From the NCBI GenBank assembly GCA_040754395.1, contig JBFMCL010000029.1:1-35672 (forward strand): a stretch of 35,672 nt of DNA, given 5' to 3'. The notes beneath the pieces are model-generated. The model was given only the letters and a program-made list of their open reading frames with translations, was not told where the DNA came from and made no database searches. This DNA comes from Nitrospirota bacterium. Its GTDB lineage: Bacteria > Nitrospirota > Thermodesulfovibrionia > Thermodesulfovibrionales > SM23-35. A program made the position numbers and the translations under genes. Shown in pieces: positions 1,652 to 18,288 of the stretch. The first letter of the stretch is position 1, and every line of letters begins with the position of its first letter.

Positions 1652-4600
1652 ATGACAACGACTGCAAGGCGTGTCGTGAGGATTATTTCTACAGGATTGC
1701 TCGCACTGCTGCTTCTTCTTGTTACCCTCTCATACGTGTACTATCTCGAGATGAAAAAGATACTACTCGCGAAGATATCTGCGCGGTCAACCGTGTTCAT
1801 CGGGCAGAAGGTTGATATCGGGGACATGTCATTCAGTCCTTCCGCAGGGATAACACTTCATGACATTACCGTGCAGAACCCAAAAGGCTTTGCACAGGGC
1901 CAACTGCTCAGGATAGAAAGAATATTCCTCAGCATGAAATACCGGGCTCTTTTCAGCGGGCGTTTTCATTTCCACACCATTGCCGTGCATTTCCCAGAAC
2001 TCGCAATAGTGAGAGATGCAAACGGAAGACTGAACCTTTCAGAGAAGCTTATGCAGTTTTTCGCGAGAGAACCGACAATCCGGTACCAGATAGATGAGTT
2101 TGCGATCATCGACGGAACTGTTGATATCAACGGGGATAAGAGATTCAGGAACCATCATGTAAGGCTTTCCCTAAGGGACCTCTCTTCCGAGAAAGGCAGG
2201 AAGACCCTTATCCGGGGCTCCACCATTCTTACGGGAGAGAGCAGGGTCAAAATTGACGGATGGGCCTATCTGAAGGATGAACCAAAAAGACTGAATATCT
2301 CTGTTTCGTCACAGGGATTTTCCCTGTCTGCGCTGGGGAACTATTTTGAATCGCATGGCATCGATACAAACAAAGCAAAGGTGATTTTTGTCCTGAGCGC
2401 TGATGGCGATACCGGGAAAGGGTTTCATCTCTCAACAGACGTGCGCATAAAGAACGCGGAGTTCTCTTTTCTCAGAGATGATCTGCAGGAGATTCTTGTG
2501 AATATGCAAGCCTTCCTGAGCATTCCGGACCAGTCCCTCTCGATCGAAAATATTTCTCTCCGGGCAGGAGGTCTGACGGCTGCGTCAGCCAAAGGAGAAA
2601 TCAGGAAGACGCAGCAGGACGTATCCTACAATGCGGTGCTGAACATCAGCAATCTTGATCTGTCAGTGCTGAATTTCATGAAGGACATGAAAATACGCGG
2701 AATAGTGCATTCCGAAAATCTGCGGGTCAGGGGAAGCCTGAAAAAAGCACTTCCGCAAGTAGCAGGCAGTCTCCGTCTGAAGGATGGTGCATTCAGCACA
2801 AAGACTGAAGATATCGCGGGCATACATGCAGAGTGTGAATTCCTGTCAGGGGGGGAAATGGCAGTGAAGGCGCAGGTGCGTGCAACGCTTTCGAAAGCAT
2901 TCGGATATCTCCTCAGCAGCCCTGCGGACACGGATATCATCCTGCATGCCAGGGGCACCCCCGATGTCATGACAATGACATCTTCCGCGAAAATTTCTCC
3001 TGTCCGGATACATACAAAAGAAGGGAAAATGCTTTCTGCAGAAAGCATTGCCTTTGACGCGGACAGTACTGTCAGGCACCGGTCAATTGCAGGAAAAAGC
3101 AGGTTAACAATGAAGGGCGTTCAGGTTGGCGGGCACACAATCCCCCTGATACACGGCAGATCGACTGTTGCCTACAGGGAACACAGCATTACCGCGACAG
3201 ATACCGTGGTTGAGGGTGAGGGGTTCAATGTCTCTGCCGGGCATGCAACGATCAGCCTGCCGGGGAAGACAGCACGCAGTGCGCTCTCAGTCGACATGCA
3301 AAGGTTCAATGCTGCATGGACAGTAAGGGATGCCGGCATCAGGGATGCTGCATTTTCCCTTCGGGTGGCGAAAAGGAACGCCCTGCTTTCCGGAGATGTG
3401 GGATTTTCGGTAAGGCAGGCATTCTACGGCGGATCGCAAGCCGGCGTCATCAGGGGAAAAGGACGGTTTAATGACAGGGAATTTTCGCTTGATATCACGG
3501 ATGCGCAAGTTCCCCGCGGCAACCTGAAACTGACTGCAAAGGGAAAGATGGCAGAAGGTCCTTTCCCGATAAAGATCACGGCAAGCGCTGAGAATATCGA
3601 CATGGAGAACCTGTCAAAAGCAGCGTCGAAAATATCCGGCGTGCCATATTCCGTCACGGGAAATATCAAAACGTTCAGCTTTGAAGGGATGGTCAGCTCT
3701 GCAGAGTCTCTGACAGGCAAGGCAGGAATGCAGGCAGAAAAAGTTTTTGTACTTGATAAGAAAAACAGAAATGTCCTGAGGGAAGGTATGGCATCGGGTG
3801 AGATTGACTTCAGAGGGGAGGATGCGGATTTCCGGCTTCGTGCAGCCGCAGGAAAGATAACGGCAGACATGTCCGGTTCGGTACAAAGCGTCATGAAGAA
3901 AGAACGAACGGCGGCGATCCGGATCAGGCTGCCGGAGCTGTATTTGACGGACATCAGGGAGACATTCTGGGATGTCTTTCCGGACAGCATGCTCTATACG
4001 GGCCTCGAGGGATCTGTTGCCCCGGATCTTTCAGTCCGGTACGGCAGGGATACCCTCAACGTCTCGGGAAATCTGGCCTGTAAGGATGTTGTCCTTCAGG
4101 GGGAAAACGGGGAGTATTCCATAGGTCCGGTCAACGGGATCATTCCGGTTATCTACAGCAGGGGCGTTCAGCAACAGAAGGGATTGCATCTGCCCTCATT
4201 CGAGCGGACCGAATTCAGCAACCTCAGAAAGTACTACTCCCACACGACACCTTCCAAGGACTTTACCAGGATAACGATAGGGTCTGTCAATTATGGATTC
4301 AGGTTTCTTGAGAATGTGGAAGTCTGGATAAAACAGGATGGCGGTTTTTTGAATATCAGTCATTTTAGTGGTAATATATTTGGAGGAAAACTGAATGGTT
4401 CTGCGGTGATTGATATGACGGAAGATATTACCTACAGGGCGGGAATTCTCCTGGAGGGCCTCAGCCTGACCAGGCTCTGTGACAGCATGGAACCGATTAA
4501 GGGATACATATCCGGAAAGGTAAACGGTATCGCAAGCCTGAAAGGTTCCGGTCGGGGTATTGCTGAACTGATAGGCAAGGCGGATTTCTGGACATACAGC

Positions 4601-4882
4601 ACTGATGATGAAAAGACGAAAATCAGCAGGGAGTTTTTGCGCGAGGTCGGGGGTCCGTCCATTAAGGCGTATCTTGGCGACCGGAAGTTCAGCAAAGGGA
4701 TCATGAACCTGTATCTGCAGAAGGGGTTTGTAATTTTCAGGGAACTCGAGATATCCAACAGGAATTTCTTCGGCATCCAGGACCTTTCTGTGAAGGTTGC
4801 GCCGTTCAACAACAGGATTGCGATCGACCATCTGATGTGGTCGATAACAGAAGCAGCCCAGAGGGCGAAAAAGAAGGGATAA
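1652..4882 (+). CDS. Large AsmA/YdbH-like envelope protein
   Basis: A 1076-residue protein with one N-terminal membrane segment (about residues 12-32), followed by a long beta-rich region. The start of the periplasmic part has an AsmA-type pattern: VDIGDMSFSPSAGITLHDI, then a positive-inside-like YRALFSGRFHFHTIAVHFPEL stretch. The C-terminal part (about 850-1050) resembles the end of AsmA/TamB/YdbH-type proteins. Members of this superfamily bridge inner and outer membranes and move phospholipid along a beta groove. The next gene encodes a DUF1318 (YdbL-like) lipoprotein, which is the E. coli ydbH-ynbE-ydbL arrangement, so a YdbH-like role is inferred. The start is the first Met before the anchor; the ribosome-binding site is poor. 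Generic AsmA/DUF748 membership is firm, the YdbH equivalence is not. Confidence 0.75.
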   Translation: MTTTARRVVRIISTGLLALLLLLVTLSYVYYLEMKKILLAKISARSTVFIGQKVDIGDMSFSPSAGITLHDITVQNPKGFAQGQLLRIERIFLSMKYRALFSGRFHFHTIAVHFPELAIVRDANGRLNLSEKLMQFFAREPTIRYQIDEFAIIDGTVDINGDKRFRNHHVRLSLRDLSSEKGRKTLIRGSTILTGESRVKIDGWAYLKDEPKRLNISVSSQGFSLSALGNYFESHGIDTNKAKVIFVLSADGDTGKGFHLSTDVRIKNAEFSFLRDDLQEILVNMQAFLSIPDQSLSIENISLRAGGLTAASAKGEIRKTQQDVSYNAVLNISNLDLSVLNFMKDMKIRGIVHSENLRVRGSLKKALPQVAGSLRLKDGAFSTKTEDIAGIHAECEFLSGGEMAVKAQVRATLSKAFGYLLSSPADTDIILHARGTPDVMTMTSSAKISPVRIHTKEGKMLSAESIAFDADSTVRHRSIAGKSRLTMKGVQVGGHTIPLIHGRSTVAYREHSITATDTVVEGEGFNVSAGHATISLPGKTARSALSVDMQRFNAAWTVRDAGIRDAAFSLRVAKRNALLSGDVGFSVRQAFYGGSQAGVIRGKGRFNDREFSLDITDAQVPRGNLKLTAKGKMAEGPFPIKITASAENIDMENLSKAASKISGVPYSVTGNIKTFSFEGMVSSAESLTGKAGMQAEKVFVLDKKNRNVLREGMASGEIDFRGEDADFRLRAAAGKITADMSGSVQSVMKKERTAAIRIRLPELYLTDIRETFWDVFPDSMLYTGLEGSVAPDLSVRYGRDTLNVSGNLACKDVVLQGENGEYSIGPVNGIIPVIYSRGVQQQKGLHLPSFERTEFSNLRKYYSHTTPSKDFTRITIGSVNYGFRFLENVEVWIKQDGGFLNISHFSGNIFGGKLNGSAVIDMTEDITYRAGILLEGLSLTRLCDSMEPIKGYISGKVNGIASLKGSGRGIAELIGKADFWTYSTDDEKTKISREFLREVGGPSIKAYLGDRKFSKGIMNLYLQKGFVIFRELEISNRNFFGIQDLSVKVAPFNNRIAIDHLMWSITEAAQRAKKKG

Positions 4883-4914
4883 TGCAAAGAATTTATTCAA
4901 GGAGGGATAGAGGC

Positions 4915-5529
4915 ATGAAACGCAAGATAACGTTTCTTTCAGGAGTGCTTTTCTTCACGCTGATGGCATGCGCAGTCATTACGGTGAATATTTACTTCCC
5001 GGAGAAAGATGTCAAGGAAGCGTATAAGGCGCTTGAAAAAGAACTTATGGGAACAGACAAGAAAGAGGGAACAACACCGGCAGGCAAACCGGAAAGCTCC
5101 ATACGTTTTGAATTCGTCAGTTCTGCGTATGCGCAGGAACCCGGCCTCTCCGAAAAGATAGCGGAAATCGTAAAAAAAATGCCGGACGTGGTTGATGCCT
5201 ACGGGGAAATGGGTGCCAGAATCAATGCTATCGACCGGCTAAGAGGAAGCGGGGTTGTGGGTGAGGCAAACAACGGACTTCTGGTCCTCAGGGAAGGGAC
5301 CATTTCGCCTGATGACAAAAAGCTCGTGGACATGGAGAATGCCGACAGAACGACGGTAATGAAGGGTATGACGAAAGCGATTATCAGAATCAACAGGGTG
5401 CCGGAAAATGAGGCGAATATGAAGCAGGTCATGCCTCAGGCAGTTGAGCAGTTTGCTGCGATCAGGCGTGATGCTGCCAAACAGGGGTGGTGGATTCAGA
5501 GTCCTGACGGGAACTGGGCCAGAAAATAA
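4915..5529 (+). CDS. DUF1318 (YdbL-like) lipoprotein
   Basis: A 204-residue protein. The ATG at 4915 is preceded by AAGGAGGG (about 4899-4905), which decides the start over in-frame ATGs upstream. The signal peptide ends in a lipobox LMAC with Cys19; Ala at +2 is compatible with outer-membrane sorting. After it comes VITVNIYFPEKDVKEA, then a linker with an AYAQ motif (about 71-74) that looks like a leftover signal-peptidase site, then the DUF1318 domain ending QGWWIQSPDGNWARK, very close to the end of E. coli YdbL. YdbL is a periplasmic partner of the YdbH-YnbE lipid-transfer bridge. The lipoprotein head resembles YnbE in position and beta character, so this may be a YnbE-YdbL fusion (inference). 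It starts 32 bases after the AsmA-like gene and is probably co-transcribed. Confidence 0.75.
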   Translation: MKRKITFLSGVLFFTLMACAVITVNIYFPEKDVKEAYKALEKELMGTDKKEGTTPAGKPESSIRFEFVSSAYAQEPGLSEKIAEIVKKMPDVVDAYGEMGARINAIDRLRGSGVVGEANNGLLVLREGTISPDDKKLVDMENADRTTVMKGMTKAIIRINRVPENEANMKQVMPQAVEQFAAIRRDAAKQGWWIQSPDGNWARK

Positions 5530-5565
5530 GTGCACAGAAACCCGAAGTGCAGGGGTATAATTGAC

Positions 5566-6090
5566 ATGATCCGGAAAAGGATTTTGAAAGGGATCGTGTT
5601 CTTTGTCCTGTCAGGATATCTCTGTCTCGACCTGTGTTTTCCCTTTGCGGTACATGCCACGTTCGAGAAGGCAGACAAGGTTGTAGTGATCAAGAGCAAA
5701 CGGCTCATGATGCTGATGAAAGAATGTAAGATTGTCAGGGCATACCGGGTTGCCCTGGGGCAGCAACCTGTCGGACATAAAACCAAGTCCGGAGACAAAA
5801 AAACTCCTGAGGGAAAATATGTTCTGGATTCAAGAAAAACAGACAGCAAATTCCATCTGGCGATACATATTTCGTATCCGAACGGTGCTGATGTGGCAAA
5901 TGCCGAGCAGCTCGGCGCAATGCCGGGCGGAGACATCATGATACACGGTTTGCCCAAAAAAATGCAGGATGTCGGCGAATTGCACAGACTGACTGACTGG
6001 ACTGACGGATGTATTGCAGTGACGAATAAGGAGATGGAGGAGATCTGGAACCTTGTCCCGAACGGTACCCCGATAGAAATAAAGCCCTAA
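5566..6090 (+). CDS. L,D-transpeptidase (YkuD / ErfK-YbiS family)
   Basis: From the ATG at 5566 the protein is 174 residues, with an export signal over residues 5-30. The YkuD domain is clear: early KADKVVVIKSKR strand, GDKKTPEGKY, HGLP with His127, and the active-site motif TDGCIAV with Cys149. These enzymes form 3-3 peptidoglycan cross-links or attach proteins to peptidoglycan through a Cys acyl-enzyme in the periplasm. A GTG at 5530 would give 12 more residues but lacks a ribosome-binding site, while AGGGG lies upstream of 5566. It sits 36 bases after the DUF1318 gene, so all three envelope genes may form one operon. It has no LysM or other wall-binding domain. Confidence 0.85.
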   Translation: MIRKRILKGIVFFVLSGYLCLDLCFPFAVHATFEKADKVVVIKSKRLMMLMKECKIVRAYRVALGQQPVGHKTKSGDKKTPEGKYVLDSRKTDSKFHLAIHISYPNGADVANAEQLGAMPGGDIMIHGLPKKMQDVGELHRLTDWTDGCIAVTNKEMEEIWNLVPNGTPIEIKP

Positions 6091-6105
6091 GGCAGCGGGT
6101 CTGCC
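6091..6105. terminator. Short hairpin between convergent genes
   Basis: GGCAG and CTGCC form a 5-bp stem with a 5-base loop, one base after the L,D-transpeptidase stop and just before the stop of the convergent TPR gene. There is no clear T run on either strand, so termination is only a possibility. Confidence 0.2.
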
Positions 6106-6111
6106 CCTTCC

Positions 6112-7272
6112 TCAGTTGATGATGTTCCGGAGGATGTCTGCCTTTTCCCTGTCAAGCTTCATGAGTGTCTGATATGCGCCAAATGCGCTTACCGTGTCTC
6201 CTGAAAGAAAATGGGTGATCCCGAGGTTGAAGTGCGCAACAGGGTTATCCGGTTCTATGGCAAGCAGCTTTCTGAAGGTGTCAATCGCCTGGGGATACTG
6301 GCTGTCCAGAAGGTACATGGTACCGAGGTTATTGTAAGTTTCGGAAGAATCCGGATTGAGGTCGAGGACTTTCTTGTATATCCCGATCGCGTCAGGGTAC
6401 CGGCCGAGTTTGTAGTAAACCAGTCCCAGATTCAGGTATGCTTCCAGGTAATCCGGCTTCAGGGTCAATGCCTGGGAATATGCGTCTATCGCCTGAAAAT
6501 ACCTGCCTGTTTTCTCAAACCCGGAGCCGAGAAGGAAGTAATCCACCGGGTCACGGGAGATCTTTTCCGGTTCTTTTTTTTCCGGAAGCACCGGAGGGAT
6601 ACTGACAATCCTGCGTTGTGCGGATCTGTGTTTTTCGAGTTCACGTGCAGTGTCTTTCAGAAAGACCGCACCGTTATTGTGGGGAAATTTTTTTGGTATA
6701 AAGACCGCTGCCCCTATGACCTCTCCCTGCATATTGAACAGAGGGCTGCCGCTTTTTTGCTGTGTGACGGGAATGGAAATCTGGAATAGTTTGTCCTTTC
6801 TGATGATGTTTTTCACGGTCCCTTTTTCAGTCACGGACTCTCCTCCTGACGGGCCGCGTGTCAGGACAATATCGTCTCCCGGCTTTAACGGAAAGTCCGG
6901 CGCGAGTTTGGCAGAAGGAAGATCTTTTGCCTCAACCCTGATCAGTGCAAGATTGTTCGTACACCTTGAGGAAATCAGTTCCTGAATCGGCAGATGAATG
7001 CCGCTGTGAAGCTCGATATCAACACGGCTGTCTGTTCTTTTAAGCCACTGGACAATAATAAGGCAATCGGTTGCGATGATTCCTTCAGAGTCGAGAATAA
7101 CCCCTCCTGCGGACATGAGATGATTGCCGTCCCTGTCGTCGAGATATATGGTCACCGCGACATCTTTGTTATGCATTAACGCATCGGAACCTCCCGAGTA
7201 CGCGGGGCAAATGAGGATCCACAGCACAATTACCGCGGTCAGCGGAATGAATCTAAGAAGGTTTATTTTCAT
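6112..7272 (-). CDS. Exported degenerate trypsin-like domain with TPR repeats
   Basis: A 386-residue protein with an N-terminal signal or anchor (residues 5-25). Residues about 35-210 follow an HtrA/trypsin-like fold: GGVILDSEGIIATD, NNLALIRV, then QKSGSPLFNMQGEVIGAA. In active HtrA proteins the first block carries the catalytic His (TNNHVV), the second the Asp and the third GNSGGP. Here the His is replaced (ATDCLI), the Asp position is Asn107 or its neighbour, and only Ser174 remains, so proteolysis is unlikely. Residues about 240-380 hold at least three to four TPR units (AIDAYSQALTLKPDYLEAY and similar). The likely role is a periplasmic binding or scaffold protein. The gene is convergent with the transpeptidase and divergent from the adaptor gene. 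Confidence 0.75.
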   Translation of the reverse strand: MKINLLRFIPLTAVIVLWILICPAYSGGSDALMHNKDVAVTIYLDDRDGNHLMSAGGVILDSEGIIATDCLIIVQWLKRTDSRVDIELHSGIHLPIQELISSRCTNNLALIRVEAKDLPSAKLAPDFPLKPGDDIVLTRGPSGGESVTEKGTVKNIIRKDKLFQISIPVTQQKSGSPLFNMQGEVIGAAVFIPKKFPHNNGAVFLKDTARELEKHRSAQRRIVSIPPVLPEKKEPEKISRDPVDYFLLGSGFEKTGRYFQAIDAYSQALTLKPDYLEAYLNLGLVYYKLGRYPDAIGIYKKVLDLNPDSSETYNNLGTMYLLDSQYPQAIDTFRKLLAIEPDNPVAHFNLGITHFLSGDTVSAFGAYQTLMKLDREKADILRNIIN

Positions 7273-11717: not shown

Positions 11718-12965
11718 TTATTTCTTTGAGGGGAAAGACGGGCCGGCCTTCATGAAAGTCCCAATGGCTTTTTCTTCGGGAGAAGCCGGTTCATACAGCA
11801 AAATCCTGTTTCTTCCCATTGATTTCGCCCTGTACAGCGCGATATCAGCATGTTCAATGACTTTATGTATGGTATCACCGTCCTGCGGGAAGCACGCAAC
11901 GCCTCCGCTAATGGAAACGAATCCCAAAGGCTGCTTTGCCCTGTATGCAAAATCATGGTGCGCTATTGTTTCCCTGAGCCGTTCTGCATACTGCAGGGCG
12001 TCTTCCCTCGAAATTTCGGGAAGCATGACGATAAACTCCTCGCCGCCGTAGCGTGCGATAATGGACTGTCTCCGTGTAGCATCCCGGATCAGCTGGCTCA
12101 GTTCCCTGAGCAGCTGGTCGCCCGCACCATGACCATTTGTATCATTATAGTGCTTGAAATTGTCGATATCAAAAAGGAATACCGAGAGAACAGTTCTCTC
12201 CCTGACTGATTTTTCAATGTAATGCTGTGCCATTTTGAAAAGGTAATTCCGGTTGTTCAGGCCGGTCAGCGGATCTGTATTAGCCTTGTGCTGGGCTTCA
12301 TTCAGGGCGGTCTGGTTGATAAGGGCAACACCCGCTATGTCCGCGATCATTCTCAGCAAATCGCCCTCATTGCCGGAGGGGCTTTCTATCCTGCCAATGC
12401 CTATGACACCCAGAAGGCTGTCTTTAAAGAGGATCGGCATTGCCATCGAAAGTTGCTGTTCCTTGCCGGGAGTTAGTGAAGGATGATTCCTGGAAAAATG
12501 TTCTGTAACCATGAGAAACCGGTGTTTTGCCGCAGCACCGATGATACCTTCTCCAAGGGCACAGGAAGTCTCCTCCTGCTGCGTACTTCCATTGGCAGAG
12601 TATTTCCTGAGGAGATTTGCAGAGTCGTCGAAAAGATAGATTTCCACTTTGTCGGTTGTGAGGACGTCGTTTACCATGTCTATGATCGAGAGCACAATGC
12701 CATCCAATTTCATGGTTGAATGCAAACGCTGCACGATCGCGGGGACTTTCAGCATAAATGTAAGGTAGCGGTTGTTCAGTGCGGCCAGTTTGTTTATTTG
12801 CACGGTCAGCTTCTGGATATGCTGGTCTCTGAACAATGTCTTGCCCTGGTCTGCAGAGTCCTGACCATCAGCATGCTTTTGCCGGTTGCTCTCCTTTTGA
12901 AAATGCCGGACCAGAACAAACAGAAGAATCCCGGCAGCGAGTATTATGGAAGCAGTCACAATCAT
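11718..12965 (-). CDS. Membrane-anchored GAF-GGDEF diguanylate cyclase
   Basis: A 415-residue protein with a membrane helix at residues 3-20, a short coiled coil (about 45-65), a GAF-type sensor domain (about 80-220, with ALGEGIIGAAAKHRF and MAMPILFKDSLLGVIGI) and a GGDEF domain (about 230-395). The active-site loop is GGEEF (307-311), expected to be catalytic: two GTP to c-di-GMP. The usual inhibitory RxxD site in front of it reads RRQS (298-301), so feedback inhibition at that site is probably lost. The first helix has almost no preceding residues, so the GAF domain is cytoplasmic. The gene faces away from the HEAT/HD-GYP/EAL block and probably belongs to the same signalling set. Confidence 0.9.
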   Translation of the reverse strand: MIVTASIILAAGILLFVLVRHFQKESNRQKHADGQDSADQGKTLFRDQHIQKLTVQINKLAALNNRYLTFMLKVPAIVQRLHSTMKLDGIVLSIIDMVNDVLTTDKVEIYLFDDSANLLRKYSANGSTQQEETSCALGEGIIGAAAKHRFLMVTEHFSRNHPSLTPGKEQQLSMAMPILFKDSLLGVIGIGRIESPSGNEGDLLRMIADIAGVALINQTALNEAQHKANTDPLTGLNNRNYLFKMAQHYIEKSVRERTVLSVFLFDIDNFKHYNDTNGHGAGDQLLRELSQLIRDATRRQSIIARYGGEEFIVMLPEISREDALQYAERLRETIAHHDFAYRAKQPLGFVSISGGVACFPQDGDTIHKVIEHADIALYRAKSMGRNRILLYEPASPEEKAIGTFMKAGPSFPSKK

Positions 12966-13261: not shown

Positions 13262-15406
13262 ATGGCCGATGCCAACAGCAACCTCCCGCTCGATGCAAGG
13301 CTTCTGAGTTATGTCATCATCGAGCTGAATATTTCACGCAGGAATGTGGCGATCTATCCGAAAAATCACCCCTCGGTGGAGCGATCCCTGACCCAGGCGT
13401 TTGATTTTTTGCGGCAGCTTTTTGCCCTCAGGCCGGAAATTACCCTTTCCATTGCGAAAGACACCATTATCATAGACGAATTTCACCTCGAAAAGAAGAA
13501 CCCGGTATTCACGGAATTTGCCGTGCATCTCAGCAAGATGAATATTGCGTCCGTAACATTCAATAAAGGCGTATCAAAAGATGAACTCTACAGTTTCCAG
13601 AGTTTTATTGTGCAAAAACCGGAGGACCTGACTATTGATAGCCTGAGAAACGCTCTCAAAAGGTTCAACCTGCGCAATATTCAGGTCAGTTTTATTGATT
13701 TCGGCTCATTTGCCTTCAGGAAAAGTCAAAGTCAAACGGCCATGAGCACGAAAGAGGCGCCGCTCTGGGAGCGTTATATTTACGGGTTGCGTTCTGGCGC
13801 ACTGAAGGGCAGCGAACTGTCACATGCGGTTCGGGAAATTCCTCCGGGAGACTTGGGAATACTTGTAAACGAATATTTATCTGAGGATTTAAAGCAAGAC
13901 ACCTATGACGGGGTGATCACAGCCTATATGAGAAGTTCAACCCATCAGCGTTTCCACGGCCAGGAACTGAAGAAAATGATGGAGTTTATCCGGGAATTAA
14001 AGCCTGATCTGAAACAGCAATTTCTCAGTTCCGCGGTAAGAACTTTCTCCCGGGATACTGCGTCAGCCTATCAGATGCTGAAAGAGGTGTCACTGGAGGA
14101 TATCAGGGGATTTCTTGATGCTGTCAACACACAGAAAATCTCTGTTCCTCCTGCGCTCCGGAACATTATGGATTCGTTATCCGAAAAACAAAGAATGCAT
14201 ACCCAAATAATCCGTCTGAAGGAAGGCATGATGATAGATGACGTTGTGCTGCCAGGCGACAGCACTGTGATGCTCGAGAATGGCAACTTCGATCCCTCGC
14301 TTTCGGATACCTACCAGCAGGACGTACAGAAACTGCTTAAGATTGATGCATCCGGGTTAAAATCCTCTCAACTCCTTGAATTTGAAACAGAGTTTTATGA
14401 TGACATTGTTGAGAAGAAATTCAATCAGATTATCCTTGAATTGTTGTTTTCCGAAAAAGCCTCGGAAGAAGACTATCGCGCATGTACCAATATCATTAAA
14501 GAGCAGAGTGCACAACTGCTGTGGATCGGAGAATATACGCATATTCTTGACATGCTCAGGATTCTCGAAATAAACAAGGCGCTGTACAGGTTTCCTGATA
14601 TCAGTGCAGGGGCTCTCCGGTATTTTCACTCTGCAGAATTCTTCGCCACATTGATCGATTCATTCAGGATTCTCGGCCGGCAGAAGAGAAAGGAAGTGTC
14701 GATGATCTGCGAGTATTATGATAAAAAAATCATACCGTACATCATGGACGCCCTCACAGATGAAGACTCTCCTGTTGTCAGGAGATTTTTGATGGAGCTT
14801 CTTAAGCAGTTTGGAGACAAATTGATACCCGAGGCATTAAAACGGCTAGATGACGAGAAATGGTTTGTGAAAAGGAATATGCTCTATATCCTGACTGAAA
14901 TAGACAACCATTCATTGGCTGAACATATACGGCCCTACTGCCGGCATGAGAATCCCAAGGTAAGTCTTGCGGCAATGAAATACCTCATTAATGCCGGAGA
15001 CAGGTACCCTGTAGAAAAACTCAGGGAATACCTGGACTCACAAGAAAAAGAAAAGTTTGAGCAGGCGGTTATGCTTGCTGGTTCCTTTAAGGTAAAGGAA
15101 CTGGTGGGAGATTTGATAGTGCTGCTCAACAAAACGGAAATGACCGGCGCTGATTTCTCCGAAAAGATTCCCATCGTGAAGGCACTGGGGGAAATAGGCG
15201 ATCCCCAGGCAGTGGCTGCCTTGCGGAATTTGCTCTCGAGCAGGAGCCTCTTTTTTAAAGGGAACACAGAACGGCTGAAAGAGGAGATTTACAAAACACT
15301 GAAGAACTATCCGTATGAAGCGGTGCAGGATCTGATAAAAGCCGGGCTGGAGTCAAAAAACGACGTGATAAGGACAGAATCAAGACTGCTGGACAGGGAA
15401 GGCTGA
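13262..15406 (+). CDS. HEAT-repeat protein with N-terminal domain shared with the next gene
   Basis: A 714-residue soluble protein without a signal peptide. The start has AGGAGA eight bases upstream. Residues about 12-147 form a domain that aligns with the N-terminus of the downstream HD-GYP protein: YPKNHPSV (32-39), FNKGVS (100-105) and IQVSFIDF (140-147) correspond to YSRHHASV, FLKGVS and IQVGVVDIDF. The middle is mainly helical. The C-terminal third (about 480-710) has HEAT-type helical pairs, for example DALTDEDSPVVRRFLMELLKQFG and VKALGEIGDPQAVAALRNLLSS, expected to bind proteins. Its stop is four bases before the HD-GYP start, so the two are translationally linked. Function is unknown; a scaffold or partner in c-di-GMP signalling is inferred. 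Confidence 0.75.
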   Translation: MADANSNLPLDARLLSYVIIELNISRRNVAIYPKNHPSVERSLTQAFDFLRQLFALRPEITLSIAKDTIIIDEFHLEKKNPVFTEFAVHLSKMNIASVTFNKGVSKDELYSFQSFIVQKPEDLTIDSLRNALKRFNLRNIQVSFIDFGSFAFRKSQSQTAMSTKEAPLWERYIYGLRSGALKGSELSHAVREIPPGDLGILVNEYLSEDLKQDTYDGVITAYMRSSTHQRFHGQELKKMMEFIRELKPDLKQQFLSSAVRTFSRDTASAYQMLKEVSLEDIRGFLDAVNTQKISVPPALRNIMDSLSEKQRMHTQIIRLKEGMMIDDVVLPGDSTVMLENGNFDPSLSDTYQQDVQKLLKIDASGLKSSQLLEFETEFYDDIVEKKFNQIILELLFSEKASEEDYRACTNIIKEQSAQLLWIGEYTHILDMLRILEINKALYRFPDISAGALRYFHSAEFFATLIDSFRILGRQKRKEVSMICEYYDKKIIPYIMDALTDEDSPVVRRFLMELLKQFGDKLIPEALKRLDDEKWFVKRNMLYILTEIDNHSLAEHIRPYCRHENPKVSLAAMKYLINAGDRYPVEKLREYLDSQEKEKFEQAVMLAGSFKVKELVGDLIVLLNKTEMTGADFSEKIPIVKALGEIGDPQAVAALRNLLSSRSLFFKGNTERLKEEIYKTLKNYPYEAVQDLIKAGLESKNDVIRTESRLLDREG

Positions 15407-15410
15407 ATCT

Positions 15411-16523
15411 GTGGATACGGTAAAGGCATTCATTGTGATATTGATGTCCGCGGTATCAAACTGTCTGCTTTACTCAAGGCATCATGCATCGGTCCTTGAA
15501 CTTTCCGAGAAGGCCTTCTCTCTGCTGAGTGCATACCTCCAGGGGACGGGACATCTTGAAATAATGATCCTTGAGGACGAGCTTGTTGTAAACAGATCCC
15601 CTTTGAGAGAGGTGGGACTTCAGGGGAAAAATCTCATGAAGAGGCTGAAACGCAAAGGGGTAACCCGCATCGATTTCCTGAAAGGTGTTTCCCTGTCAGA
15701 ACTGAGACAGCTTGTCGCCAATATTGCTTCCGCGGAAAAAGGACTGAAGTCCCTGCAACATATACAGGTGGGAGTTGTTGATATTGATTTTGACAGATCC
15801 CATGTATCGGGTGATTTCTCTGCGGACAGATCATCGGATATGGTATCGGGCCAGATTGAAAAAGTGCAGGGACAATATCACGCGGTCTCTCCTTTCAGGC
15901 AGCTGAATATTGCGGGCTTTGAAGAAATTGTGGTCCAGTTTGTACTGGCGCTGCAAAAAGACATGGGGATTCTTCATCTCCTGAGCCCGGTCAGGTCCAT
16001 GAGTGAATATCATGCCGCGCATTCTGCAAACGTCTCTGTGCTGACCATGTTCCAGGCGCAGGCTATCGGCATCAGGGAGGAGTTCGTCCATGACATCGGA
16101 CTTGCCGCATTACTTCATGATGTGGGCAAATTACTGATGCAGAAGGAAAAAGAAGGTCAGGCCAAAGCTGACACAGGCATTGAGGAGAACGCAATAGAAC
16201 TGCATACGGTATATGGGGCACAGTATCTTGCAAAGACAGACGGCCTGACACGCCTTGCACCCATCGTGGCTTTCGAACATCATCTCAGGTATGATGGCCG
16301 GGGATATCCGCAGTGTAAAACGCAGGGGATGAAGCAGCACCTCTGCAGCCAGATGACCGCCATTGCAGATTATTTTGATACATTAATGAGCGCGAAACCT
16401 GACGGCCGCACGATAGAAATGGATGAGGCGCTTTACTTAATGAGGACAAAAGATGAGGGGTTGTTTAACCCCTTCCTTATCAACAATTTCGTGAGGTCAA
16501 TGCATCTGGCATTATCCCGGTAA
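15411..16523 (+). CDS. HD-GYP-type phosphohydrolase (putative c-di-GMP phosphodiesterase)
   Basis: A 370-residue protein starting at GTG 15411, directly after the HEAT gene. Residues about 1-127 are the domain shared with that protein. The HD-GYP domain (about 175-360) keeps the metal ligands: HSANV (His204), LLHDVGK (His236, Asp237), HTVYG (His265), and EHHLRYDGRGYP (His290, His291, GYP 298-300). These enzymes hydrolyse c-di-GMP to pGpG or GMP at a two- or three-metal site in the cytoplasm. The usual DALTSDRPYR stretch is altered to DTLMSAKPDGR, but the family call is firm. It lies between a HEAT protein and a GGDEF-EAL protein, so it is part of one signalling operon. Confidence 0.88.
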   Translation: MDTVKAFIVILMSAVSNCLLYSRHHASVLELSEKAFSLLSAYLQGTGHLEIMILEDELVVNRSPLREVGLQGKNLMKRLKRKGVTRIDFLKGVSLSELRQLVANIASAEKGLKSLQHIQVGVVDIDFDRSHVSGDFSADRSSDMVSGQIEKVQGQYHAVSPFRQLNIAGFEEIVVQFVLALQKDMGILHLLSPVRSMSEYHAAHSANVSVLTMFQAQAIGIREEFVHDIGLAALLHDVGKLLMQKEKEGQAKADTGIEENAIELHTVYGAQYLAKTDGLTRLAPIVAFEHHLRYDGRGYPQCKTQGMKQHLCSQMTAIADYFDTLMSAKPDGRTIEMDEALYLMRTKDEGLFNPFLINNFVRSMHLALSR

Positions 16524-16530
16524 AGCATCC

Positions 16531-18288
16531 ATGAAGGATCCGGCAAGAACAGTTTCTGAAGACAATGATGACTTCAGGATAAGAGTCGAAAGCCTGAGCC
16601 ATATGGCTGACCTCGTGTTTGTGATCAGCCAGGACGGGAGGGTCCTCGAGTTCCAGGGAAAAAGGGATAGCGAACTTCTTGCGCCTACCGGCGATCTGGT
16701 CGGCAGGACACTCCATGATATCATGCCCTCACAGGTGGCGAACCCGATCATGCGGTTCAGGGAAAAAGCGCTTCAGTCGGGCAATCAGCATATTTTTAAT
16801 TACCAGCTTCTCATAAACACAGAAAAGTACCATTATGAGACGCGCTTTTTTCTCAGCGGGCAGGGCAAGGTAACGGTCGTGGTACGCAATATGACCGAGT
16901 ACAAGAGAGCGGAAAATCAGGTCAGATATCTTGAATATCACGACAGTCTGACGAACCTTCCGAACAGGTACCTGTTTCAGGACCGCCTGGAACAGGCAAT
17001 CGCATTCGCTGAACGCAGAAACGGTGTTGTGGCTGTCCTGCTGCTTGATATCGATAACTTCAAGAGGATTAACGAAGCGGTCGGATATGCTGCCGGAGAC
17101 CTGTTGCTGCAGAGCTTTGCCGACAGACTGGCGCCCTACGTACGGCAGACGGACAGCATCTCGCGCATTGCAGCTAGCGAATCCGAATCCCTGATTGCGC
17201 GTCTCGGAGGAGATGAGTTTACGATTCTGCTTACCGAAATCACGCATATCCAGGATGCGGCAAGAGTTGCAAACCGTATATTGCATATGGTTACGGAGCC
17301 TTTTATTGTCGAAGGACAGGAAATTTTCATATCTGTCAGCATAGGCATCGCGGTATATCCCTTCGACGGAAAAGACATAAACACTCTCCTGAAAAACGCG
17401 GATATGGCGATGTATCAGGCAAAGGACCACGGGAGAAACAATTTCCAGTACTATTCCGAATCACTCAATGCCTTCTCGGTGAAGCGGTTTACCACAGAGA
17501 ACAAATTGCGGAAAGCGGTCGACCATAATGAGCTCATGCTGTTTTATCAGCCGCAGATTGACATTGTTACCGGCGCAATAATCGGTGTGGAGGCGCTGAT
17601 ACGATGGCTGCAGCCGGATTTGATCCTCATTAAGCCTTCCGAGTTTATCCCATTGGCCGAGGAGTCGGGCCTGATCATCCCGATAGGCCAGTGGATACTC
17701 CGGAATGCGTGCAGTCAGAGCCTTGCCTGGCAGAAAGCGGGAATGAAACCGCTCCGCATGACAGTGAATGTTTCCGGCATACAGTTCAGACAGGGCAACT
17801 TCATCGAAAGCGTCTCCCAGACCCTCAGGGAAACAGGGCTTGATCCGGCACATCTTCAGCTGGAACTTACCGAGAGCATCATCATGCAGCACTCTGAGGA
17901 TACGGTGAAAAAGCTGCATGCCCTGCAGTCGATGGGAATCCGGATATCCCTTGATGACTTCGGTACGGGGTATTCCTCTCTGAACTATCTGAAACGCTTC
18001 CCGATATCCACATTGAAGATCGACCGTTCATTCATTCAGGATATCGCCACCAACCCTGATGACCAGGCTATCACAAAGGCGATTATCGGACTGGCAATTA
18101 ATCTGAACCTTAATGTTATCGCAGAGGGAGTGGAGACAAGGGAACAACTGAGATACCTGCGATCATATGAGTGTCAGGCAATACAGGGGTATTTGCTCTG
18201 TCCGCCCCTGAACCCTGTTTCTCTGGCGCAATTTGTGAAACAGGGCAAGTACCTCGATATGCTGAAAAGATGCGGAATAAGAATATAA
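16531..18288 (+). CDS. PAS-GGDEF-EAL bifunctional c-di-GMP protein
   Basis: A 585-residue cytoplasmic protein with a PAS domain (about 15-125), a GGDEF domain (about 130-310) and an EAL domain (about 325-575). The cyclase motif GGDEF is intact (226-230). An RQTD inhibitory-site motif (205-208) is separated from it by an eleven-residue insertion rich in Ser, Ala and Glu. The EAL domain keeps the catalytic set: EALIRW (Glu354), ELTES, DDFGTGYSSL, KIDRSFI and AEGVET, so it should hydrolyse c-di-GMP to pGpG. In tandem proteins one half often controls the other; which activity dominates cannot be read here. It starts seven bases after the HD-GYP gene. Confidence 0.92.
   Translation: MKDPARTVSEDNDDFRIRVESLSHMADLVFVISQDGRVLEFQGKRDSELLAPTGDLVGRTLHDIMPSQVANPIMRFREKALQSGNQHIFNYQLLINTEKYHYETRFFLSGQGKVTVVVRNMTEYKRAENQVRYLEYHDSLTNLPNRYLFQDRLEQAIAFAERRNGVVAVLLLDIDNFKRINEAVGYAAGDLLLQSFADRLAPYVRQTDSISRIAASESESLIARLGGDEFTILLTEITHIQDAARVANRILHMVTEPFIVEGQEIFISVSIGIAVYPFDGKDINTLLKNADMAMYQAKDHGRNNFQYYSESLNAFSVKRFTTENKLRKAVDHNELMLFYQPQIDIVTGAIIGVEALIRWLQPDLILIKPSEFIPLAEESGLIIPIGQWILRNACSQSLAWQKAGMKPLRMTVNVSGIQFRQGNFIESVSQTLRETGLDPAHLQLELTESIIMQHSEDTVKKLHALQSMGIRISLDDFGTGYSSLNYLKRFPISTLKIDRSFIQDIATNPDDQAITKAIIGLAINLNLNVIAEGVETREQLRYLRSYECQAIQGYLLCPPLNPVSLAQFVKQGKYLDMLKRCGIRI

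Follow-up and report, generated by a model that had tools for sequence, protein, structure and literature searches.

The HD-GYP phosphodiesterases (Pfam HD_5), among them PmGH and RpfG, are the closest described relatives of the enzyme discussed here. The activity of PmGH is abolished by an alanine in position D183 (PMC4159591), and RpfG acts partly via protein–protein complexes (PMC3749722). In many proteins the HD-GYP domain is preceded by DUF3391 (PF11871), a domain the function of which is not known and for which mostly beta strands and a C-terminal helix are described (PMC12943098). Bacterial HEAT and PBS-lyase HEAT-like proteins, such as NblB, represent the second type of protein relevant to this work. 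A search of the literature outside subscription journals and preprints found neither a link between HEAT and HD-GYP proteins nor a report on HD-GYP signalling in Nitrospirota.

Here, a 35,672-nucleotide stretch of DNA from a Nitrospirota bacterium (hereafter, the window) was analysed, in which two adjacent genes encode a HEAT-repeat protein and an HD-GYP protein with related N-terminal domains (N-domains). We give about an even chance to the explanation that these genes are a conserved two-protein signalling cassette, whose N-domains would join the HEAT and the HD-GYP protein so that the former controls or places the phosphodiesterase.

Gene organization of the locus

The HEAT-repeat protein is encoded at 13262..15406 on the forward strand (714 aa, ATG start). 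The shared N-terminal domain forms its front (residues 10–148, 13289..13705), as delimited by profile alignments and an AlphaFold model, and a HEAT solenoid region identified by Pfam covers residues 371–710 (14372..15391). Tandem HEAT repeats are found above the Pfam cut-offs, with PF13646 (HEAT_2) at 57.8 bits in four stretches (cut-off 27.7) and PF03130 (HEAT_PBS) at 25.9 bits (cut-off 20.9). The HD-GYP protein, likewise assigned by Pfam, follows on the same strand at 15411..16523 (370 aa, GTG start). It carries its own copy of the shared domain at the front (residues 2–127, 15414..15791, delimited in the same manner) and the HD-GYP catalytic domain at residues 199–363 (16005..16499; HD_5 at 50.8 bits, cut-off 27.2). 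When the open reading frames were re-read, the coordinates and the four-base gap between HEAT stop and HD-GYP start given in an earlier note on this DNA proved correct, and every motif quoted there for the two N-termini was found in the sequence. A ribosome-binding-like site for the HD-GYP gene, AGGGAAGG, was read from the sequence at 15395..15402 (+), within the final part of the HEAT gene, which suggests that translation of the two genes may be coupled.

In the window, the pair sits among other c-di-GMP genes, as a PAS-GGDEF-EAL protein is encoded from 7 bases past the HD-GYP gene (16531..18288, +) and a GAF-GGDEF diguanylate cyclase divergently upstream (11718..12965, −). The PAS-GGDEF-EAL gene possibly belongs to the same operon as the pair; no relative of it was found beside the pair in other loci. 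In four related loci (L061, L062, L064 and L106), a relative of the GAF-GGDEF gene lies in the vicinity of the pair, and this cyclase is one of few recurring neighbours. In L067, L077 and L084 the gene immediately upstream of the pair is that of an ABC transporter instead (identified by Pfam in L067).

Homology and fold of the N-terminal domains

That the HEAT and HD-GYP proteins begin with a common domain had been claimed in the earlier note from an alignment by eye. The claim is borne out by BLASTP, profile–profile comparison, a shuffle control and AlphaFold topology. A single BLASTP comparison of the HEAT N-terminus (~148 residues) with that of the HD-GYP protein (~127 residues) gave 33.5 bits at E 2e-7. 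The profile–profile comparison that the note had proposed returned significant similarity between 30 HEAT and 33 HD-GYP N-termini (probability 98.8%, E 5.1e-17, 111 columns), and larger sets of 51 and 47 N-termini, collected through a different search, gave 98.7%, E 3.8e-16 and 116 columns. Moreover, a profile of the HEAT N-termini gave each of the 47 HD-GYP N-termini a score of at least 15.2 bits (median 36.3), with a maximum of 10.5 bits among 4,700 shuffled copies and zero matches reported for the 47 reversed sequences. Among 1,775 ORFs from related loci, the same profile matched HEAT-family or HD-GYP-family ORFs only. By these sequence comparisons, the two N-domains are homologous and chance is ruled out.

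The AlphaFold models of the HEAT and HD-GYP copies are confident (pLDDT 87.2 and 88.2, pTM 0.81 and 0.79, respectively) and agree in the order of their elements, α-α-β-β-α-β-α-β, i.e. two helices, a two-strand hairpin, a helix, a strand, a helix and a strand; the HEAT-copy model has one additional helix preceding the final strand. Element order and sequence homology together point to the same predicted fold in both proteins, and neither the lack of similarity nor the different folds that the earlier note had named as counter-evidence was seen. The domain comprises ~120 residues with the hallmark Y(P/S)xxHPxV at the turn linking helices 1 and 2; the Tyr and His of this motif, and a Glu, are among the columns conserved across both copies. 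Mean pairwise identity in the HEAT protein is 49.9% for the N-domain compared to 33.2% for the middle and 39.8% for the HEAT tail, which makes the N-domain its most conserved part. Within the domain, conservation peaks at residues 10–40 of the HEAT protein, i.e. helix 1 and the YPxxHP turn (68.8% mean pairwise identity).

The notion that this module carries no name holds for Pfam and NCBIfam, and the searches brought up no relative of solved structure. Scans of both collections with single domains and with 63 aligned members gave scattered chance matches only. Profile comparison of these 63 N-domains gave zero matches to GAF, PAS or REC, a result still compatible with a distant relation. A sequence search of the PDB returned nothing for the HEAT-copy profile and two weak matches at chance level for the HD-GYP-copy profile. 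Foldseek of the N-domain models against PDB and BFVD gave nothing at E 0.001, and the best VIA-align 2 scores (Z 4.8 and 4.2, below 5) both fell within the background range. The domain could have a novel fold; absence of a structural match is no proof of it. No plasmid copy was found in a search of plasmids.

DUF3391 was considered as the identity of the N-domain and rejected: an hhalign comparison with DUF3391-region sequences of the same order gave a probability of <1%. The DUF3391 profile returned nothing at E 1 against the two proteins of the window, and DUF3391 is absent from the window's genome.

Conservation of the gene pair

With the HEAT protein alone as query, an HD-GYP gene was found immediately downstream in 30/30 relatives, at distances from a slight overlap to ~25 nt. 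Across the sampled Nitrospirota, each of the 99 unique domain-bearing HEAT genes with sufficient downstream sequence is followed by an HD-GYP gene (99/99), a count that includes some loci picked because a domain match was already visible. Those picked without a prior domain match are the first 30 from the HEAT query, a scan of the relatives' contigs and a HEAT search in 396 genomes. The HD-GYP partner lies close behind in 98 cases and ~185 nt downstream in L243; the N-domain was detected in 97/98 of the HD-GYP partners. Among 81 relatives, 35 genomes have both genes of the window's type and 46 have neither. Direct search accounts for 33 of the 35, while the partner in G008 and G009 was seen on inspection. 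The reciprocal search of the 81 relatives with the HD-GYP N-domain gave 33 positive genomes, all of which contain the HEAT gene. Clustering of the surrounding genes shows that the pair alone is conserved and that the flanking genes vary.

This conservation of the gene pair (99/99 genes; 35/35 genomes) strongly supports a functional coupling of the HEAT and HD-GYP genes. The earlier note had suggested that both proteins form mixed assemblies or respond to the same signal; a coupling is upheld by these counts for genes and HEAT-type genomes, which do not separate the two.

The domain is present in 82/198 sampled Nitrospirota genomes and wholly absent from several lineages of the phylum, and HEAT genes close to that of the window were found in 75/396 Nitrospirota genomes. 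The window's genome has three pairs, namely that of the window, one on contig 20 (2133-5380) and one on contig 4 (~98.0-101.1 kb), the last being a more distant version with a shorter HEAT protein and a longer HD-GYP protein.

Several loci are irregular. In a relative from the window's family, L157 holds a third, fast-evolving pair (3524-7019, −) with an intact HEAT gene, an HD-GYP gene that is split between two frames (276 and 102 aa) and both N-domains on long branches. The HEAT gene of L063 (316-3808) is distributed over two ORFs ~1.2 kb apart, and the gap contains a 382-aa ORF on the opposite strand that resembles an inserted element. Two adjacent pairs occur in L064, where they are divergent, and in L090, where they are in tandem and one of the HEAT genes is split over several frames.

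The domain on histidine kinases

Further outputs bearing this domain, which the earlier note had proposed to look for, do exist: PAS-HisKA-HATPase histidine kinases headed by the N-domain were found in three Nitrospirota genomes from two families (L158, 2281-4164; L163, 1923-3812; L167, 1799-3766; all on the reverse strand). The domain is thus a reusable signalling module, and its presence on these kinases is what such a module predicts. In addition, one genome has a 155-residue ORF that consists of the domain alone (L164, 3625-4089, +), with a HEAT-only protein encoded from 13 bases past it (4102-6084, +). This ORF may represent either a split HEAT partner or a shortened kinase.

As kinases that have no part in such a pair also bear the domain, its role may be that of a sensor rather than of a docking part. 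This is the main rival explanation, which we regard as rather unlikely: the shared domain would bind a small molecule or perceive another cue, and both proteins would read the same input independently. The HD-GYP protein would answer by a change in c-di-GMP, whereas the HEAT protein would bind other targets, so that contact between them would be unnecessary. The N-terminal location ahead of HEAT, HD-GYP and histidine-kinase outputs is typical of an input domain, and the Tyr, His and Glu invariant across both copies could bind a ligand. However, a common sensor alone needs no strict 1:1 adjacency of the two genes, and neither a ligand, a pocket nor, by Foldseek and VIA-align, a related sensor fold was identified.

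The HD-GYP catalytic domain

The positions of PmGH (PMC4159591) were mapped onto the HD-GYP protein of the window by residue spacing. Its catalytic-domain residues H204, H236 and D237, K240, H265, H290 and H291, the GYP motif (298–300), D320 and D323 are invariant in 33/33 relatives. The HDxGK motif is found as LHDVGK (residues 235–240), and its four defined residues are invariant in 33/33. The counterpart of the HHExxDGxGYP motif reads HHLRYDGRGYP (residues 290–300); HH, DG and GYP are present, HH and GYP are invariant in 33/33 relatives, and Leu replaces the Glu after HH. Of the eight PmGH metal ligands (E185, H189, H221, D222, H250, H276, H277 and D305), seven are present and invariant in the family. 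The eighth position, E185, is Tyr in the window's protein (region of residues 198–200), which would fit the two-metal subgroup of PMC4159591. The counterpart of the catalytic K225, K240, is invariant as well. The position of PmGH D183 is occupied by Ser here and by Ser or Asn in the majority of the relatives compared, and the next residue is a conserved Glu. The contig 4 paralogous pair in the window's genome retains Asp at this position.

The protein had been called a c-di-GMP hydrolase in the earlier note. The seven invariant metal-ligand positions argue for this activity and the Ser in place of D183 argues against it. Hydrolysis of c-di-GMP is likely judging by the sequence signature; it is not assured, because a residue essential in PmGH is replaced.

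The same substitution bears on a second alternative, in which the main role of the HD-GYP protein is regulatory: it would bind or slowly hydrolyse c-di-GMP and thereby switch the HEAT protein, the effector, on or off. The prevalence of Ser or Asn among the relatives, at a position whose loss abolishes PmGH activity (PMC4159591), is consistent with such a role, and RpfG is an example of action by contact in an HD-GYP protein (PMC3749722). We nevertheless consider this improbable: none of the 33 relatives departs from the HD pair, the Lys, the other histidines or GYP, and the HD-GYP domain is the most conserved part of its protein (55.4% identity), which suggests that catalysis is retained.

Functional interpretation

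Tandem duplication alone could be the source of the shared domain; in the N-domain tree most HEAT-side copies separate from HD-side copies, but the tree does not decide whether a single duplication lies behind all pairs (p-AU 0.195 to 0.28). That the similarity merely survives from an ancient tandem duplication and swap of domains, with co-transcription alone keeping the genes together and no physical or regulatory link via the domain, is very improbable: translational coupling alone can preserve overlapping or near-overlapping genes, but the pair has remained intact while its flanking genes were reshuffled, further pairs are found in families that diverged deeply and as paralogues within one genome, and no part of the HEAT protein is better conserved than the domain.

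The preferred explanation is the two-protein signalling cassette. The strict pairing of two proteins that start with paralogous domains argues for a heteromeric unit joined via these domains. The N-domains of the HEAT and HD-GYP proteins would bind one another, and the HEAT protein would serve as an obligate partner by which the HD-GYP phosphodiesterase is regulated or placed, control presumably running in this direction. The HEAT arch may bind a target or an upstream input; recruitment of targets by this putative scaffold, as the earlier note had it, is plausible. As an outcome, either local c-di-GMP would fall by hydrolysis or the complex would work by contact, for which RpfG offers a precedent by analogy. 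Support comes from the domain homology, the matching predicted topology, the invariant gene order, the co-inheritance, the reuse on kinases and the intact HD-GYP signature.

Covariation between the two N-domains was not enriched and did not favour an interface there, as this block accounted for 5 of the top 50 inter-protein pairs and 3.8 would be expected; with 80 gene pairs (Neff 71) the alignment is too shallow and intra-domain contacts are likewise indistinct, so that this analysis lacks power. Between the HEAT middle (residues 160–370) and the HD-GYP N-domain, 16 pairs at 5.9 expected were found in the top 50, a slight excess that stems from a few columns of an alignment too shallow to be relied on.

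Taken as a whole, the picture of a new family with a fold absent from solved structures, and of a Nitrospirota-wide c-di-GMP device in which HEAT and HD-GYP proteins are joined by paralogous N-domains, the plug being reused on histidine kinases, is put forward tentatively, at somewhat less than an even chance.

Comparison with known systems

The system bears on how c-di-GMP phosphodiesterases acquire local, specific tasks. Recognition of the domain would annotate the N-termini of numerous HEAT and HD-GYP proteins and of kinases together, and, being without a Pfam or NCBIfam name, it is a candidate for deposit as a new family.

Among HEAT proteins, the NblB type resembles the window's protein in its C-terminal HEAT_2 and HEAT_PBS repeats, whereas the NblB model scores 23 bits against it at a cut-off of 300 bits. 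The N-terminal domain and a pairing with HD-GYP are not known as features of that family. DUF3391 is similar in that it precedes HD-GYP, but its described topology (PMC12943098) differs from the α-α-β-β-α-β-α-β order of the N-domain. The complexes of RpfG with GGDEF and PilZ proteins in Xanthomonas are comparable as cases of an HD-GYP protein acting via protein–protein complexes (PMC3749722); they involve other partners, other genes and another surface (the GYP motif of RpfG), and RpfG has neither a HEAT protein nor a shared domain. In common with PmGH and RpfG, the window's enzyme combines HDxGK and GYP, 7/8 PmGH metal positions and an input-type domain placed first. Unlike PmGH, it has Tyr and Ser in the positions of E185 and D183. 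It further differs in that its input domain gives no Pfam match to REC, GAF, PAS or DUF3391 and that it has an obligate HEAT neighbour with the same domain. An HD-GYP enzyme that, in the sampled Nitrospirota, always comes with a HEAT partner of the same domain presents a concrete and testable case of an enzyme with its candidate scaffold.
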